A stretch of 64,000 bases of DNA, taken from NCBI GenBank assembly GCA_002733705.1, contig NVWP01000032.1, forward strand, positions 1-64,000, read 5' to 3'. Below the pieces are notes generated by a model. It did no database searches. It was given only the letters and a program-made list of their open reading frames with translations, and had not been told where the DNA came from. The position numbers were made by a program, and so were the translations under genes. The stretch comes from Henriciella sp. (GTDB lineage: Bacteria; Pseudomonadota; Alphaproteobacteria; Caulobacterales; Hyphomonadaceae). This document shows, piece after piece, positions 30,201 to 35,839 of the stretch. Numbering within the stretch: the stretch's first letter is position 1; each line of letters opens with the position of its first letter.

Positions 30201-30920
30201 TCAGGCGGCGATCGCGTCTTCTTTCTTCTTCGGGTCGCGCAGGACATAGCCGCGCCCCCAGACCGTTTCGATATAGTGCTCACCGCCCGGATTGTCGGCC
30301 GTGGCCGTCGCCTTGGCGAGCTTCTTGCGGAGCTTGCAGATGAAGACGTCGATGATCTTCAGTTCCGGCTCGTCCATGCCGCCATAAAGGTGGTTGAGGA
30401 ACATTTCCTTGGTGAGCGTCACGCCCTTGCGAAGCGAGAGCAGCTCGAACATCTGGTATTCCTTGCCGGTCAGGTGCACGCGGTCGCCTTCGACCTCAAC
30501 CGTCTTGGAGTCGAGATTGACGACGATCTCGCCGGTGCGGATGACGCTTTCGGCGTGGCCCTTGGAGCGGCGCACGATCGCGGTGATACGGGCGATCAGC
30601 TCATCCCTGTTGAACGGCTTGGTCAGATAGTCGTCGGCGCCATAGCCGAGTGTCTTGACCTTGGCTTCGATGTCGGGATTGCCCGACAGGATCAGGACCG
30701 GCGTATTGATACGGGCCATGCGAAGCTGTTTCAGGACGTCATAGCCAGAGATGTCCGGCAGATCGAGGTCGAGAACGATGATGTCGTATTCATACACCTT
30801 GCCGAGGTCTACGCCCTCTTCACCGAGGTCGGTGGTGTAGATGTTGAACCCGGCAGCTTTCAGCATCAGCTCTATGCTGCGGGCGACGGAACTGTCGTCT
30901 TCAATTAGAAGAACTCTCAT
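30201..30920 (-). CDS. ctrA: Cell-cycle response regulator CtrA
   Basis: A 239-residue OmpR-type response regulator, essentially identical in layout to Caulobacter CtrA. The receiver domain (1-120) begins [20 protein letters not shown] and has the phospho-acceptor Asp in [18 protein letters not shown] and [13 protein letters not shown]. The DNA-binding winged helix (about 125-230) carries [32 protein letters not shown] and [10 protein letters not shown]. The C-terminus ends DAIAA; a terminal Ala-Ala is the ClpXP-recognised degron of CtrA. GGGAGAG precedes the ATG. CtrA activates flagellar and division genes and blocks replication initiation. Confidence 0.98.
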
Positions 30921-31042: not shown

Positions 31043-31894
31043 TTAATAGTGAACCCGCCGGCCCGCTGAGCGGCCGATGAAACTCTGCGCGATGGCGATG
31101 GCATCCTGCACCGGCTGCGCGGTCGGATCTGTCGAGATCAGCGTGCGCTGGCAGCGCACCGCCTCGCGGACCTTTTCGTCGCGATGGACGATCCCGGCGA
31201 GCGGCGGACGGTAGCCCTGGAATTTCTTGCAGGCCATGGCGATGGCTTCATAGGTCTGCTGACCCGTGGCGCGGTTCGGCGCCTGATTGATCGCCACATG
31301 CTGCTCGACATCGGGGGCATAGCCGCGAAGGACTTTCATGAAGGCATAGCCATCGGTCATCGAGGACGGATCGTCGGTGATGACGATGAGGGCCTTGTCG
31401 GCGGCGCGGGCAAGACGCATGCAATTGGCTTCGATACCGGCGCCAAGGTCGAGGATGACCTTGTCATATTGCAGCGACAGCGTGGTGAGACCGGCCGAGA
31501 GGCGGGACACCTCTTCGGTCGACAGCTCTGCCAGGGCGCCAGAGCCGGAACGGCCGGGCAGCACATCGAAGCCGCCACTGGTGGCACCGCCATCGACCGG
31601 GGTTACGGCGTCCTCAAGCTCGACCCAGCCGGCGATCACCGCGGCGATGTCGGTCGCCGGCTCGATGCCGAGCTGGACGTCTACGTTTGCGAGACCAAGG
31701 TCACCATCGACAAGCAGGGTTTTCTGCCCCTGCTGGGCGAAGGCACTGGCGAGGGTTATGGACATGAAGGTCTTGCCGACCCCGCCCTTGCCAGACGCCA
31801 CCGCGATGATGTCGCCAGGTTCAACCCGCCTGTGATGGGACTTGCCTTGCGGCGACTTCGGTCTGTCCATCGATTTTGGAAGCATGAAGCTCAT
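31043..31894 (-). CDS. flhG: MinD/ParA-type ATPase, FlhG-like
   Basis: A 283-residue SIMIBI ATPase. The deviant Walker A KGGVGKT is near residue 33 with flanking IIAVASGKGGVGKTFMSITLASAFAQ. LLVDGDLGLANVDVQLG is the FlhG-type Walker A' region, KVILDLGAGIEANC the Walker B, and INQAPN the base-recognition loop. FlhG (FleN/YlxH) limits flagellar number by acting on FlhF GTPase. It directly follows flhF (one base between stop and start), supporting this call over ParA. A membrane-targeting C-terminal helix is not obvious. The gene symbol rests on the flhF neighbour. Confidence 0.82.
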   Translation of the reverse strand: MSFMLPKSMDRPKSPQGKSHHRRVEPGDIIAVASGKGGVGKTFMSITLASAFAQQGQKTLLVDGDLGLANVDVQLGIEPATDIAAVIAGWVELEDAVTPVDGGATSGGFDVLPGRSGSGALAELSTEEVSRLSAGLTTLSLQYDKVILDLGAGIEANCMRLARAADKALIVITDDPSSMTDGYAFMKVLRGYAPDVEQHVAINQAPNRATGQQTYEAIAMACKKFQGYRPPLAGIVHRDEKVREAVRCQRTLISTDPTAQPVQDAIAIAQSFIGRSAGRRVHY

Positions 31895-31895
31895 C

Positions 31896-32903
31896 TCATG
31901 CAGCTCCTCTTAGTGCGAAATCTACTGAAGCTTCTTCCAGCAGTATTTTTGATAGCCGGGCCGGTGTGGCAGGCACGAGCCCGCCGCCGATAAACGGTGT
32001 GACGCCCAGATGGGCGAAGGATATGCCCGCGCTGGCAAGCGCGGCGACAACACCGCCGCGCCGGCGCGTAACATCCAGCTTGGATATGATGGCGCGCTTT
32101 ACACCGGCATCGGCAAAAGCGCGTGCGGCATCGGCGAGGTCTTCCGGGTGGCCTTCTGCCGAGATGACCAGAACCGGTTCTGCATCAATGACCGCAATGA
32201 GGTCCTTGAGGCTCGCCATGTCCTCCTGGTCGAAAGGAACGATGGCGGGAAGGTCGATCACGCAGCGCTCGCCATCTTCGCGGGCGGTGCGCAGCATGTT
32301 GAACAGGTCATCGGGGGTGCGTGCCACGCGGATCTGGTCCTGTTCCAGTTCCAGATAGGCGGCAAGCTGTGCGCCGCCGGCTGTGGCGTCGAGATCGGCC
32401 GCGACCGGCAGGATGCGCGTGTCGGCGACGGCGGCGCGGCGCGTCAGCTTTGCGGCGGTGGCGGTGCGTCCATGTCCAGGCGGGCCGACCAGCAGGATGT
32501 CCCGGCGCGGGCGCGCGGCGATGGGGTCGCAGCTAATCATCGCATCGAGGCCAGCGGCCATGATATCGGTCGGGTCTGAGCTCTTCGCGCAGACCGGAAT
32601 ACCGGCATCGGCGACACGTTCGGCAAAGCGCAGCGGCGCGCCATGCCAGGTCAGGGCGTCGCGCACGCGGTTGCGCAGCGGGTTTTCCTGCGGGCGCGGG
32701 GCGCCATTGGTCCGGTTGAGGCGCGTGACAAAGCGCGGCTCGCTCGGCACCATGCCGCCGCCAAGCTTGTCGGTCGCAGCACGGACTTCAACGCCGCCAG
32801 GAACTTCGCGCTCCGACAGGATAATCGCATCCTCGCCCATTTCGGCAAAGATCATGGCCTTTGCCGCTTCCAGACTCTCGGCTGCGAACATTTTCATGCG
32901 CAT
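31896..32903 (-). CDS. flhF: FlhF-like SRP-type GTPase with degenerate active site
   Basis: A 335-residue protein. MRMKMFAAESLEAAKAMIFAEMGEDAIILSER is the typical FlhF N-terminus, followed by a helical N domain and the G domain. The G1 loop reads GPPGHGRTAT in place of GxxGxGKTTT, so the Walker lysine is Arg. G3, normally DTAGR, reads DLPAI. G4 is SKLD in place of TKLD. The G2 region DTYRIGA is also lost (DLDATAG). FlhF marks the pole for flagellar assembly and FlhG stimulates its GTPase. Loss of G1 and G3 signatures suggests weak or no GTP hydrolysis. The start ATG 32903 has GGAG within a hairpin. Confidence 0.8.
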   Translation of the reverse strand: MRMKMFAAESLEAAKAMIFAEMGEDAIILSEREVPGGVEVRAATDKLGGGMVPSEPRFVTRLNRTNGAPRPQENPLRNRVRDALTWHGAPLRFAERVADAGIPVCAKSSDPTDIMAAGLDAMISCDPIAARPRRDILLVGPPGHGRTATAAKLTRRAAVADTRILPVAADLDATAGGAQLAAYLELEQDQIRVARTPDDLFNMLRTAREDGERCVIDLPAIVPFDQEDMASLKDLIAVIDAEPVLVISAEGHPEDLADAARAFADAGVKRAIISKLDVTRRRGGVVAALASAGISFAHLGVTPFIGGGLVPATPARLSKILLEEASVDFALRGAA

Positions 32904-32912
32904 GAGCAAATC

Positions 32913-32927
32913 ACTCCATTCTGGAGT
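32913..32927 (-). promoter_or_regulatory. Palindrome masking the flhF ribosome-binding site
   Basis: ACTCCA-TTC-TGGAGT is a perfect six-base inverted repeat. On the mRNA the GGAG that serves flhF lies in one arm, so the hairpin could hide it. The overlapping GAGTC at 32924-32928 is also a GANTC site. Confidence 0.45.
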
Positions 32928-33047
32928 CCAGTTGTCGGCGACAAAGGTTAACGAATTCTGTCGAATTGTTAGGGAAGGATGGGTTATCCCCAGCGTTTTG
33001 AGGGCGCCGGAAATTCGAACAAGCAACGAACACAGCCCGGTTTGACG

Positions 33048-33308
33048 CTAGGCAGCTCGCTTTTCATCAATGATTTCAGAGAGTTTAACCCCGAGCTGTC
33101 CGTTCGACACGATCAGCCGTCCCCGCGCCATGAGCCTGTCAGATACATAGATGTCCACAGGTTCGGTGGTTGATTTTTCCAGCGCGACGATTTCGCCGCC
33201 CGACATGTTCATCAATTGCTCGATGGGGATTCGGGCTTCGCCGAGCACGACATCCACGCGCACAGGGACGTCAAGCAGACCCGACTCCGGTGTGCGGCCG
33301 TTTGGCAT
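33048..33308 (-). CDS. fliN: Flagellar motor switch protein FliN
   Basis: An 86-residue SpoA-domain protein of the C-ring. LLDVPVRVDVVLGEARIPIEQLMNMSGGEIVALE and VDIYVSDRLMARGRLIVSNGQLGVKLSEII are the FliN core, the usual length for the short form. It docks on FliM/FliG and binds FliH. GGAGGAG precedes the ATG at 33308. The frame reaches back to 33377, but that part is not conserved. Gene order fliG-(fliH-like)-fliN matches the Caulobacter fliF operon. Confidence 0.95.
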   Translation of the reverse strand: MPNGRTPESGLLDVPVRVDVVLGEARIPIEQLMNMSGGEIVALEKSTTEPVDIYVSDRLMARGRLIVSNGQLGVKLSEIIDEKRAA

Positions 33309-33398
33309 GGTGCTCCTCCGATTCGTCGAATCAGGTTTGGGTGAAATGGTTTCGCAGACGTTACCGCGGGGCGTCACGCGTCATTTGCGCGACCAGAA

Positions 33399-33761
33399 TC
33401 ACCCTTGGAAGAGATTGCCCTGGCCGTCAATCAGTTCTGCCGCGATCTTCCGCACACGGGCTTTTGCGTCTTCGCGCATCGCTTCGGAAATCGGTGCCTT
33501 TTCAAGGGCGTTGGCCAGTTCGACGATTTGCAGCAATGCCACGCGAAGCGCGTCTGAAGAACGCTCCATGGACTCGTTGCGGGCCTTCGCCTCGCGGTCG
33601 CGCACCATACGCAGCGTGCTCTGGCGCGTATCGTCGAGGAGGGCGGCAAGCTCCTGAATGCTGAGGCTGATCTTCTCCGGTCCGGCGGGCGCAGGGGCCG
33701 GAGCGGCAAAATCGCTCCGGAATTCGAACGGTGTAACAGAGGTGACCCGGGTCTCGCTCAT
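33399..33761 (-). CDS. Putative FliH/FlbE-like flagellar protein
   Basis: A 120-residue protein. A Pro/Ala-rich N-terminus (to about 28) is followed by a helix-rich region, ISLSIQELAALLDDTRQSTLRMVRDREAKARNESMERSSDALRVALLQIVELANALEKA. This resembles a coiled coil without a recognised domain. The call rests on position: in Caulobacter the slot between fliG and fliN is flbE, the FliH-type regulator of the export ATPase FliI. At 120 residues it is much shorter than FliH (about 220-235), and the C-terminal FliI-binding domain is not evident. It overlaps the fliG stop by four bases. Confidence 0.5.
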   Translation of the reverse strand: MSETRVTSVTPFEFRSDFAAPAPAPAGPEKISLSIQELAALLDDTRQSTLRMVRDREAKARNESMERSSDALRVALLQIVELANALEKAPISEAMREDAKARVRKIAAELIDGQGNLFQG

Positions 33762-34690
33762 TCGATCAGCTCGTCCTCAATGTCGTCATGCGTGAGGATT
33801 TCGCCCTTGCGCGCAAGGTGGCGGGCAATGTCGGTAATCTCTGCGCGCGCCGCCTCGACCCGGGAGCGGCGAACCGGCCCCATCGCCTCGATCTCTGAGA
33901 CAAGCAGCTCACCGGCGCGGCGGGTAACATTGCGCAGAAAGATATCAAGAACAGGCTTGCTTGCGCCTTTCAGCGCTGTGGCGAGTGTCGCCCGGTCCGT
34001 CTGTGACAGGATGGTCTGCATTGCCGCCGCATCCATCGAGGCAAGATCGTCAAAGGTGAACATGAGCGCGCGAATACGCTCGCCCGCGCCGGGGTCGCTT
34101 TCCTCAAGAAACGACAGCATGGGCTTTTCAAGACCTGCGCCGAGCCGGTCGAATATACTCGCAATCTTTCGCGGGCCCTCGCTGGCGGGGCCTGAGAGGC
34201 CCGCATCGATCTGCCGGCCCAGCGCATTCTCGATCAGGGCGAGGCTCTCGCTGTCCGGCCGGCCGGCATGAAGCAGGCGGCGCAGGGCGGAGACGGCAAT
34301 ATCGCGCGGCAAGGCGCGCACGGTCAGGGCGGCATGTGCCGCATTCATGCGCGACAGGATGAGCGCAATGGTCTGTGGATGCTCGGGCGCAATCGAAGCG
34401 GCAATGGCGTCCGGCTCGCAATCGCTCAGCCGTTGCCAGACGCTCTGCTCTTCGGGCGGCGCATAAGGCTCAGGCCTTTCCAGCTCACTGATGAAAAGCG
34501 CGGCATCCTCGTCCGTCGGCTGGAGTTCTCCGGCCGTCATGGCGCGGCGCAGATGGGCTGTTTCTCCCGCTGAAAGCTCATTCCAGACGCCGGCAGCGGC
34601 GGGGCCGAGCAGGCGCATGAGGCGCGCGGCGCGGGCAACACCGGTTTGCGGGGAGGGGCTCTCGTCCATCTGAAGGGCGGGCAGGCTCAT
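33758..34690 (-). CDS. fliG: Flagellar motor switch protein FliG
   Basis: A 310-residue FliG, slightly short (usually 330-350). The N-terminal domain has RAARLMRLLGPAAAGVWNELS, which contacts the FliF tail. The middle domain carries the EHPQTIALIL motif. The C-terminal domain has MFTFDDLASMD, then ALKGASKP, FLRN and GPVR, so the torque-helix residues equivalent to E. coli Lys264, Arg281 and Arg297 are kept; acidic residues follow in GELLVSEIE. The switch is therefore probably functional. It overlaps fliF upstream and the FliH-like gene downstream by four bases each. Confidence 0.92.
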   Translation of the reverse strand: MSLPALQMDESPSPQTGVARAARLMRLLGPAAAGVWNELSAGETAHLRRAMTAGELQPTDEDAALFISELERPEPYAPPEEQSVWQRLSDCEPDAIAASIAPEHPQTIALILSRMNAAHAALTVRALPRDIAVSALRRLLHAGRPDSESLALIENALGRQIDAGLSGPASEGPRKIASIFDRLGAGLEKPMLSFLEESDPGAGERIRALMFTFDDLASMDAAAMQTILSQTDRATLATALKGASKPVLDIFLRNVTRRAGELLVSEIEAMGPVRRSRVEAARAEITDIARHLARKGEILTHDDIEDELIE

Positions 34691-35385
34691 GACCGGGCCT
34701 CATCATCCTTCGACAGCCACTGGCGAACGAGGCGGGCCGCCGCCTTCGGGTCGCGGGCCGCGGCATTGCGGGCGAGCGCGAACTCATCCTCATTTGCCGG
34801 CGTGCCGGGTTGCGGCGCTGAGCGCATGACCTGGCTGGCCGGCTGGATCTCCGGCTGATCGGGCTTGCGCGGTGCGGTCGCGGCAGCCGGGGCGGCCTTC
34901 TCCTGACGGCCAGGCGGCATCAGTATCAGGAAGGCGAGCAGCAAGCCGATCAGGCCAAGCGCCCCCAGCTCATAAAGCTCAATGGTCCGAAAGCCCCCGG
35001 CAGTGCCGGGCGCAAAAGCGAAAGGCTGGACGTGAAGACTGTCGGCGGCGCGGTCATAGCCTGCGCTGGATTCCAGGATGGTGACCACGCGCTCAAAGAC
35101 CGGCCGGTCCACCGGAATGCCCTGCGCCTCGCTATTGATCATGACCAGGAACTGGCGGTTGCCATCGCGGCCGGTATGGCTGGCAACGCGGACATTGCCG
35201 GTGCCGAAGAGCGGCTCGAGCAGACTGGTCAGCTGGCGCTGCTGGAAGGTCTGCGCGTCTGGGGCCGGGGCGCCATCGGTCAGCAGCGTGTTGGCGCGCC
35301 ATGCGAAAAGGCACGCGGTTATGGCGAGCGCGATAAGCGCTGCCAGCCGCGTGCCTCCTGGCATGATTGACCTTTTAGCTGACAT
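34687..35385 (-). CDS. fliF: Miniature FliF (MS-ring protein reduced to RBM3 and FliG-binding tail)
   Basis: A 232-residue protein in the fliF position. Residues 14-29 form TM1. LLEPLFGTGNVRV (about 55-67) and then FERVVTILESSAGYDRAADSLHVQPFAF (about 97-125) match the two halves of the FliF RBM3 domain. TM2 spans about 137-157, and the C-terminus (AARDPKAAARLVRQWLSKDDE) matches the FliF tail that binds FliG. RBM1, RBM2 and the beta-collar inserted in RBM3, together about 300 residues in ordinary FliF, are absent. No other piece of the gene lies in the 104 bases before it, so this is not a simple frameshift. It is translationally coupled to fliG. Confidence 0.8.
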   Translation of the reverse strand: MSAKRSIMPGGTRLAALIALAITACLFAWRANTLLTDGAPAPDAQTFQQRQLTSLLEPLFGTGNVRVASHTGRDGNRQFLVMINSEAQGIPVDRPVFERVVTILESSAGYDRAADSLHVQPFAFAPGTAGGFRTIELYELGALGLIGLLLAFLILMPPGRQEKAAPAAATAPRKPDQPEIQPASQVMRSAPQPGTPANEDEFALARNAAARDPKAAARLVRQWLSKDDEARS

Positions 35386-35433: not shown

Positions 35434-35448
35434 TAAACGGCGCTTTAA
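35434..35448 (-). promoter_or_regulatory. Candidate CtrA box before fliF
   Basis: TTAA-N7-TTTA on the minus strand, one base from the consensus TTAA-N7-TTAA, lies 49 bases before the fliF start. CtrA drives the fliF operon in Caulobacter. Confidence 0.5.
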
Positions 35449-35488: not shown

Positions 35489-35764
35489 CTAATTGGTGCG
35501 GTACTGCTGGATGCGCGTCGTGCGCAGACCCTTGGTGCCGTATTCGTCATAGAGACGTGACCAGCCGGCCAGCTCTTCTTCCGAAAGGGCATAGCGTTCG
35601 CAGGCTTCGCTCTTGGACAGAAGGCCGCCGCGAACGGCCGCTACGACTTCGGCTTTCCTGCGGGTCACCCAGCGACGAATGCCTGGGGGCGGGAGGTCCT
35701 CCCGGGTCATGACCTGGCCATCCGGGCCCTTGATACTCAGAGTTCTAGCTTCTTGCTGCGCCAT
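35489..35764 (-). CDS. sciP: CtrA inhibitor SciP (DUF1153)
   Basis: A 91-residue protein of the DUF1153/SciP family. The core VMTREDLPPPGIRRWVTRRKAEVVAAVRGGLLSKSEACERYALSEEELAGWSRLYDEYGTKGLRTTRIQQYR is close to Caulobacter SciP. It carries a helix-turn-helix and binds CtrA at promoters to block its activity late in the cell cycle. The start is ATG 35764; an ATG four codons earlier is possible. sciP lies just upstream of fliF, as I recall for Caulobacter, though ctrA is elsewhere in that genome. Confidence 0.92.
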   Translation of the reverse strand: MAQQEARTLSIKGPDGQVMTREDLPPPGIRRWVTRRKAEVVAAVRGGLLSKSEACERYALSEEELAGWSRLYDEYGTKGLRTTRIQQYRTN

Positions 35765-35839
35765 GAGATCCACCATTTCTTAGCGGTTATAAATCCGGGA
35801 CGCGTTTTGCGTCCGTTCAATGGCTCTAGCGCTGGTGGA

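Follow-up and report, generated by a model that had tools for sequence, protein, structure and literature searches.

Genes at the locus

The window analyzed here, a stretch of 64,000 nucleotides from Henriciella sp. (contig NVWP01000032.1; family Hyphomonadaceae), carries on its minus strand a flagellar-type gene group in which the place of fliF, next to fliG, is taken by a gene for a protein of 232 amino acids (aa), called here mini-FliF. Comparison of this gene, its neighbours and a second stator, which is encoded elsewhere in the genome and lay beyond the view of a preliminary description of the window, suggests that in one clade of this family of marine bacteria the motor half of a flagellum serves a separate function.

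Mini-fliF is a real gene. Plus-strand frame 1 is interrupted by stops across 34687-35385, and the gene is read from the minus strand; its 3' end shares 4 bp with the start of fliG (34687-34690), and fliG and the next, flbE-like gene overlap likewise by four bases, in line with the earlier view of a short protein in the fliF slot coupled to fliG. The open frame around mini-fliF comprises 243 residues, only 11 beyond the annotated 232, and a hidden in-frame copy of the RBM1 and RBM2 domains was therefore rejected. An assembly error joining the ends of a longer fliF, which the preliminary description had considered, was rejected as well, since 67 of 105 family genomes gave a match in a single-sequence search (E<=0.01), several of them being single contigs.

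Domain structure of mini-FliF

No FliF model of Pfam or NCBIfam matched mini-FliF at E<=1. This includes PF01514 (YscJ_FliF, covering RBM1 and RBM2) and PF08345 (the FliF C-terminal model), the two families against which an alignment had been proposed. Weak matches below the cut-offs were to DUF7472 (10.3 bits) and BamI (18.2 bits, where 180 would be needed). Judged by its sequence, mini-FliF is not a FliF by domain definition, as two Pfam models and two regions are missing from it.

The relationship to FliF was examined with a profile built from 18 relatives of mini-FliF. Its alignment with Salmonella FliF, a protein of solved structure, has an E of 2.9e-8, with the score coming from the second half of RBM3, the second transmembrane segment (TM2) and the C-terminal tail (positions 396-559 of 560), whereas the first half of RBM3 (Salmonella positions 239-270) aligned weakly, at 8.7 bits and an independent E of 16. 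The same domain map was obtained with ten full-size FliF proteins, nine from the same locus of sister genera and one of the Fla1 type: the beta-collar between the RBM3 halves is deleted, everything before RBM3, including RBM1 and RBM2, is missing from the alignment, and the first RBM3 half scores 6-12 bits in the five alignments displayed. A profile-profile alignment with full FliF (E 2e-9) spans only the second RBM3 half and what follows. The RBM3 core is therefore present, its second half clear, its first half weak but correctly placed with respect to both Salmonella and sister FliF. The tail of mini-FliF aligns to the very end of Salmonella FliF, and FliG binding is predicted for it.

AlphaFold modelling of the window protein together with those of four loci gave a model with a mean predicted local distance difference test score (pLDDT) of 52, in which TM1, an alpha-beta-beta-alpha-beta fold, TM2 and two tail helices can be recognized. 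In a Foldseek search with this model the best PDB matches were FliF RBM3/collar structures at E 1.8e-3, none being below 1e-3. These comparisons support the architecture outlined in the preliminary description, in which TM1, RBM3, TM2 and a putative FliG-binding tail are kept, and RBM1, RBM2 and the beta-collar are lost. Mini-FliF would thus be derived from FliF and would act as an RBM3 ring and an anchor for FliG. It shares with the Caulobacter-type FliF of the sister genera the locus, the gene order, TM1, both RBM3 halves, TM2, the predicted tail and a CtrA-like box, and differs from it in the absence of RBM1, RBM2 and the beta-collar, in size (232 versus 549-604 aa) and in belonging to an operon without FlhA.

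Other genes of the operon

The neighbours of mini-fliF are collected in Table 1. The FliG of the window matches the FliG_N model at 18.6 bits, below the Pfam cut-off of 25, and the NCBIfam model TIGR00207 at 150 against a cut-off of 227. At 310 aa it is shorter than the FliG proteins of sister loci (352-375 aa), about 50 residues having gone around the end of the N-domain and the linker. In comparison with sister FlbE, the FlbE of the mini loci has kept its N-terminal part and lost most of the C-terminal globular part; a short GQGDLF-type motif at its C-terminus is apparently kept, as judged from weak matches. In FliH, the C-terminal domain binds FliI and the N-terminus binds FliN. In the window the FliN gene is followed directly by that for FlhF, with no FlhA in between. 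The cuts in FliF, FliG and FlbE and the absence of FlhA would fit a removal of secretion and a retention of the torque ring.

FlhF and the ParA-like ATPase adjoin the mini operon in many loci. All 48 FlhF proteins of mini loci compared, that of the window included, have arginine at the position of the P-loop lysine (GPPGHGRT or GAPGHGRT); the ten FlhF hits of sister loci comprise six with lysine, two with arginine and two without a match.

Table 1. Features of the mini-fliF region, in window positions
Feature	Positions	Strand	Remarks
CtrA response regulator	30201..30920	minus	NF045991, 7.5e-121
ParA/MinD-family ATPase, FlhG position	31043..31894	minus	intact GKGGVGKT
FlhF-like signal recognition particle (SRP) GTPase	31896..33026	minus	P-loop GPPGHGRT, Arg instead of Lys
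FliN	33048..33377	minus	FliMN_C 5.6e-22
FlbE/FliH-like	33399..33761	minus	120 aa; named from position and sister loci, family models unmatched
FliG	33758..34690	minus	310 aa; FliG_C 6.5e-32, FliG_M 5.8e-14, FliG_N weak
mini-FliF	34687..35385	minus	232 aa, ATG start; TM1 ~10-37, RBM3 core without beta-collar ~47-122, TM2 ~133-155, then linker, predicted FliG-binding tail ~199-230
CtrA-like box TTAA-N7-TTTA	35434..35448	minus	~60 bp upstream of mini-fliF start
SciP, CtrA inhibitor	35489..35776	minus	NF051866, 3.4e-37; adjoins mini-fliF upstream

Distribution and origin of the mini operon

The profile added mini-FliF to the single-sequence matches in five genomes (G002, G003, G071, G072 and G060) and found a degenerate copy in G030. 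A mini-size gene is present in 71 loci, all from one clade of Hyphomonadaceae that comprises 78 genomes of the genera g1, g2, g4, g6 and g9. The locus sample consisted of the window, 66 further genomes with a single-sequence match, five other FliG loci and nine loci of sister genera. The order SciP-FliF-FliG-FlbE-FliN is found in 71 of the 72 mini loci, window included, the miss (G078) being due to a contig end, and the same order with full-size genes is found in all nine sister loci (FliF 549-604 aa, FliG 352-375, FlbE 202-444 with some starts overlong, FliN 113-122); it is also the gene order sciP-fliF-fliG-flbE-fliN of Caulobacter. By this shared order, the mini-rotor is the old Caulobacter-type flagellar operon in trimmed form. 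In two loci the frames are broken, possibly by a frameshift or an assembly error: FliG of G089 (L103) is split over two frames, and mini-FliF of G042 (L104) lies in two overlapping ones.

On an operon tree (SciP, FliG, FlbE and FliN; 80 rows; quick method) a single change separates full from mini loci, and the label of flagellum-bearing versus flagellum-less genomes changes five times among the mini rows; this is not a species tree, and loss and gain are indistinguishable on it. In a profile search of 398 genomes of the order, an even sample of a larger group, mini-size frames occurred in the same family only, among the matches listed; those listed from other families lay in frames no shorter than about 500 aa and aligned mainly in the C-terminal half. 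No relative of mini-FliF was found on plasmids at E<=1.

Caulobacter controls its flagellar genes by CtrA. A CtrA-like box, defined as TTAA-N7-TTAA with at most one mismatch (at least 7 of 8 bases) and lying no more than 150 bp upstream, precedes 71 of 71 mini-fliF genes and 8 of 9 full sister genes, and occurs in 1.5% of base-shuffled controls. The ratio of nonsynonymous to synonymous substitution rates (dN/dS) is below 0.5 wherever it could be computed for mini-FliF, FliG, FlbE and FliN, pairs of flagellum-less genomes included; 18 chosen pairs were compared per gene, several of them saturated or nearly so. Gene order, box and dN/dS agree with the earlier argument against simple decay.

Torque residues and the second stator

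Residues are named by E. coli numbers, placed by eye on the motifs of FliG and MotA. Among 70 mini-FliG proteins, and with conservative changes allowed, the equivalent of K264 is present in 69, of R281 in 70, the acidic residue 289 in 70 and the basic residue 297 in 69. The earlier statement that FliG keeps its torque-helix residues thus holds for K264, R281, D289 and R297; the D288 position is variable. Of the contacts that transmit torque, MotA R90 pairs with FliG D289 and E98 with R281 (PMC7564593).

Where a mini genome has FlhA, it carries two MotB genes (three in G006) and, except for G050, two MotA genes; those assigned to the mini-rotor are called here MotA2 and MotB2. MotA2 was examined in 14 genomes other than the window's, among the MotA genes listed by position, and MotB2 in 16 (15 sampled loci and contig C144 of the window's genome). 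These samples hold MotA2 from five and MotB2 from six of eight genomes that keep the mini-rotor without a detectable flagellum (see below). MotA2 has the equivalents of E98 and of the transmembrane prolines P173 and P222 in 14 of 14 proteins and a basic equivalent of R90 in 13 of 14. MotB2 keeps the channel aspartate (YADF) in all 15 sampled proteins and in that of the window's genome, as well as the OmpA-like motif and domain; compared with sister MotB, its linker from the plug to this domain has lost about 75 aa.

Gene neighbourhood was used to trace both genes, the neighbours being named from a reading of their sequences. Near MotB2 we found an arginyltransferase-like gene at 15 of 15 loci, a dehydrogenase-like gene at 14 and a permease at 12, compared with 5, 5 and 2 of five sister MotB loci. 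Near MotA2 an MltB-like gene was found at 11 of 14 loci, a HAD gene at 10 and an MFS gene at 12, compared with 3, 1 and 2 of six sister MotA loci; G028 has the MFS gene only, with neither MltB nor HAD, and G035 and G074 have none of the three. The neighbourhoods tie MotB2 well, and MotA2 fairly well, to the ancestral stator gene.

Rotor and stator genes are retained together. Both are present in 71 of the 78 clade genomes, the rotor only in one, the stator only in three and neither in three (p 0.001), and among the 69 genomes with completeness of at least 90% the counts are 65, 0, 1 and 3 (p 8e-5); the incomplete G022 and G066 and the degenerate G030 are counted as rotor-less, and, the clade genomes being related and not independent, the p-values are indicative only. 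Two breaks are of interest. The only FliG without the equivalents of K264 and R297 belongs to G030, in which no MotB match was found. Its mini-FliF remnant (L120, 4005-4385) is a protein of 126 aa with two TM-like segments and a FliG tail, lacking RBM3. G031, a small genome, has kept MotA and MotB and has no match to FliG or mini-FliF; its MotA (L130) carries glutamine at the Arg90-equivalent, the only neutral residue among 14. As each break coincides with a missing partner, both may serve as natural controls, and both would fit a working contact between rotor and stator.

The flagellum of the same genome and genomes without one

The genome of the window encodes an ordinary FliF of 507 aa on another contig (C110), in a Fla1-like flagellar cluster that was named by matches to an annotated Rhodobacterales plasmid. 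The cluster also has matches to FliG, FliN, FliP, FlgA, FlgD, FlgE, FlgF, FlgG, FlgH, FlgI, FlgK, FlgL, FliL, MotA and MotB, while the one flagellar FlhA of the genome and the flagellin are encoded on contig C31. With a full fliF in this separate cluster, mini-fliF is not the MS-ring gene of this genome's flagellum. The second full-length fliF and flagellar set that had been thought capable of refuting a special role are thus largely present, but they do not account for mini-fliF, since the mini set is kept in eight genomes that gave no match to PF01514 FliF, FlhA or flagellin. The C110 cluster resembles one on the Paroceanicella plasmid pD4M1D, the FliF proteins being 41-42% identical over the matched part; the present Fla1-like flagellum may have been acquired horizontally.

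The gene counts per genome come from draft genomes, each count from one hidden Markov model (HMM) search. Most mini genomes also carry flagellar FliF and FlhA, and 13 of the 78 clade genomes have neither PF01514 FliF nor FlhA. One of these, G022, is a fragmented assembly with a FliG match of Fla1 strength and two each of MotA and MotB. Among the other 12, the mini-rotor is present in eight (G002, G003, G020, G025, G028, G061, G073 and G088; 80-100% complete), degenerate in G030 and absent from G001, G013 and G031. Flagellin was found in none of the 11 of these 12 genomes that were searched for it, G001 standing outside that search; G000 and G035 have flagellin. The eight genomes with the mini-rotor have no match to PF01514 FliF, FlhA, PF02154 FliM or flagellin, FliP, FliQ and FliR not having been searched genome-wide, and they contain one MotA in 8 of 8 and one MotB in 7 of 8, with no MotB match in G088 (80% complete). 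PF02154 FliM occurs in 25 of the 105 genomes, none of which has mini-FliF, though the model may miss divergent FliM of the Fla1 type.

More than one FlhA match was found in each of G079, G081, G098 and G099 (three in G098, some at contig ends), and a second PF01514 protein, in a frame of 374-486 aa, in G079, G081 and G098. These matches perhaps belong to another secretion system or flagellum.

A proposed rotor and stator without a flagellum

With a probability of roughly 0.6, the mini-rotor and its stator form a CtrA-controlled, ion-driven and secretion-free system that is derived from the flagellum and independent of it. According to this reading, the flagellum with which the clade started was of the Caulobacter type, and its torque core would have been reduced and retained for a flagellum-free job. 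Mini-FliF would form a ring in the membrane with only its RBM3 and hold FliG on its tail, FliG would carry FliN and the short FlbE, and MotA2 and MotB2, the old stator with MotB shortened, would drive FliG by the ion gradient. Since the inner ring of RBM1 and RBM2, which surrounds the export gate, is absent and the operon lacks FlhA, the mini ring could not hold such a gate in the ordinary manner, and rod, hook and filament would not be built on it. FlhF and the ParA-like ATPase probably set a polar position, and CtrA may time the expression. As for the output, our guess is signalling, with the stator-driven rotor reporting load, surface contact or energy state. The motor-like scaffold without secretion that was among the options of the preliminary description agrees with this picture. 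A bolder version, held tentatively and at slightly less than even odds, is a dedicated non-flagellar, ion-driven rotary motor with an RBM3-only ring, FliG and FliN without FliM, and a short MotAB, which evolved once from a flagellum and works as an internal sensor or actuator in the life cycle under CtrA control.

A membrane ring built from an RBM3-type domain without RBM1 and RBM2 is known from the SpoIIIAG sporulation ring. This ring lacks FliG, FliN and a stator, unlike the mini set; the homology of SpoIIIAG to RBM3 is stated in PMC8786727. According to the same source, isolated RBM3 with its collar yields ring-like structures and tubes and has been proposed to set the stoichiometry of the MS ring, for which reason an RBM3-only ring is plausible. 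In Caulobacter, mutants with an inner-membrane rotor and no outer flagellum stimulate holdfast formation via MotAB and DgcB, and this signalling requires both proton flux and FliF (PMC7885107). In that related organism an inner-membrane rotor and a proton-driven MotAB thus suffice without outer parts; the signalling rotor of Caulobacter forms as one sub-assembly within an actual flagellum, whereas the mini set is a permanent and separate set of genes. Such signalling could be the only task of a lasting rotor and stator that has no filament and is controlled by CtrA. Compared with the flagellar torque unit, the mini set has the same FliG torque residues, FliN, the MotA pore and contact residues and the MotB aspartate and OmpA-like domain; FliM was not found, FliG and MotB are shortened, and the set is kept in genomes that gave no match to FliF, FlhA or flagellin. 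Partial flagellar sets of non-motile bacteria likewise contain rotor genes without a filament, and PMC12199754 raises an alternative rotor function for them as a possibility; the mini set, unlike those, is clade-wide, coordinately trimmed and paired with a stator.

Several observations weigh against this reading. The composition and conservation of the set are shown; ring formation, rotation, polar location and sensory output are inferred, and the last is a guess from the analogy with Caulobacter. The first half of RBM3 gives only the weak alignments described above, and the structure models are poor (pLDDT 52 for mini-FliF and 49 for FliG modelled from a single sequence). The FliM model is unmatched, though part of the EHPQ site of FliG is kept. 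MotA2 and MotB2 are encoded outside the mini operon. Their sequences taken alone link them weakly to the ancestral stator, MotA2 sharing 44% identity with sister MotA and 41% with Fla1 MotA, and MotB2 34% with both sister and Fla1 MotB; the neighbourhood from which the kinship of MotA2 is judged is missing at 3 of 14 MotA2 loci and, among the sister loci, at 3 of 6. G088 has the rotor without MotB, and G031 has MotA and MotB without FliG. Finally, FlhF and ParA do not stand beside the mini operon in part of the loci, and, given the arginine in the P-loop of all 48 FlhF proteins, the ordinary GTPase-driven polar placement may not apply.

The strongest rival, unlikely in our estimate, is a passive polar scaffold, in which mini-FliF, FliG, FliN and FlbE form a platform that is placed by FlhF and ParA, organizes other polar proteins and produces no torque, MotA2 and MotB2 serving something else. 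The frequent adjacency of FlhF and ParA, the CtrA/SciP neighbourhood, the unmatched FliM model and the absence of FlhA from the flagellum-less genomes would all suit a scaffold, but FliG and MotA have conserved the residues of their torque contact, and MotB its aspartate; rotor and stator are retained together, and in G030 as in G031 the break goes with the absence of a partner. The same motor evidence would serve for a motor with a mechanical output, which turns or drags a component of the envelope in budding, cell-wall work or surface movement, and the shorter MotB linker may place the stator nearer the membrane. We consider this output improbable, however, as the operon showed no further gene for a partner in the periplasm or outer membrane, and the neighbours recognized at MotA2 and MotB2 are housekeeping-like and common to the sister genera.

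That most mini genomes also have flagellar FliF and FlhA would be expected if the mini ring were an accessory to today's Fla1-like flagellum. Such a role is very unlikely given the eight genomes in which the mini-rotor is kept without detected PF01514 FliF, FlhA or flagellin, and given that the Fla1 cluster of the same genome as the window comes with a separate FliF, FliG, FliN, MotA and MotB. A slowly decaying remnant of a lost flagellum is the least probable explanation and close to negligible: the genes are shortened, real decay is seen in G030, and FliG and mini-FliF are unmatched in G001, G013 and G031, yet one gene order is kept in nearly all loci, the CtrA-like box is conserved, the same trimmed design is found throughout the clade and dN/dS stays low even between flagellum-less genomes.

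Injectisomes derive from flagella, and in them the secretion half lives alone. Here the converse seems to apply, a motor half alone, clade-wide, with its power supply, and with the parts related to secretion removed from several proteins. If rotation without a flagellum is true, this would be a new kind of machine, and if the reading as a dedicated motor is true, secretion and propulsion would have been lost in a mirror image of injectisomes, which kept secretion and lost the motor.

A literature search gave no account of a mini-FliF or of a rotor and stator without a flagellum among the matches listed, mainly open papers. A 'hat-like' structure of the inner membrane, described for Hyphomonas and other bacteria in PMC9380563, is tied to flagellar export species and is not FliF in H. 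pylori; no connection with mini-FliF is claimed. The names fliF and fliG have no occurrence in the main text of PMC7200025, which describes gene deletions in the genetically tractable H. neptunium. The genus g4 may, as a guess, be Hyphomonas, in which case the idea should be directly testable in this tractable species.

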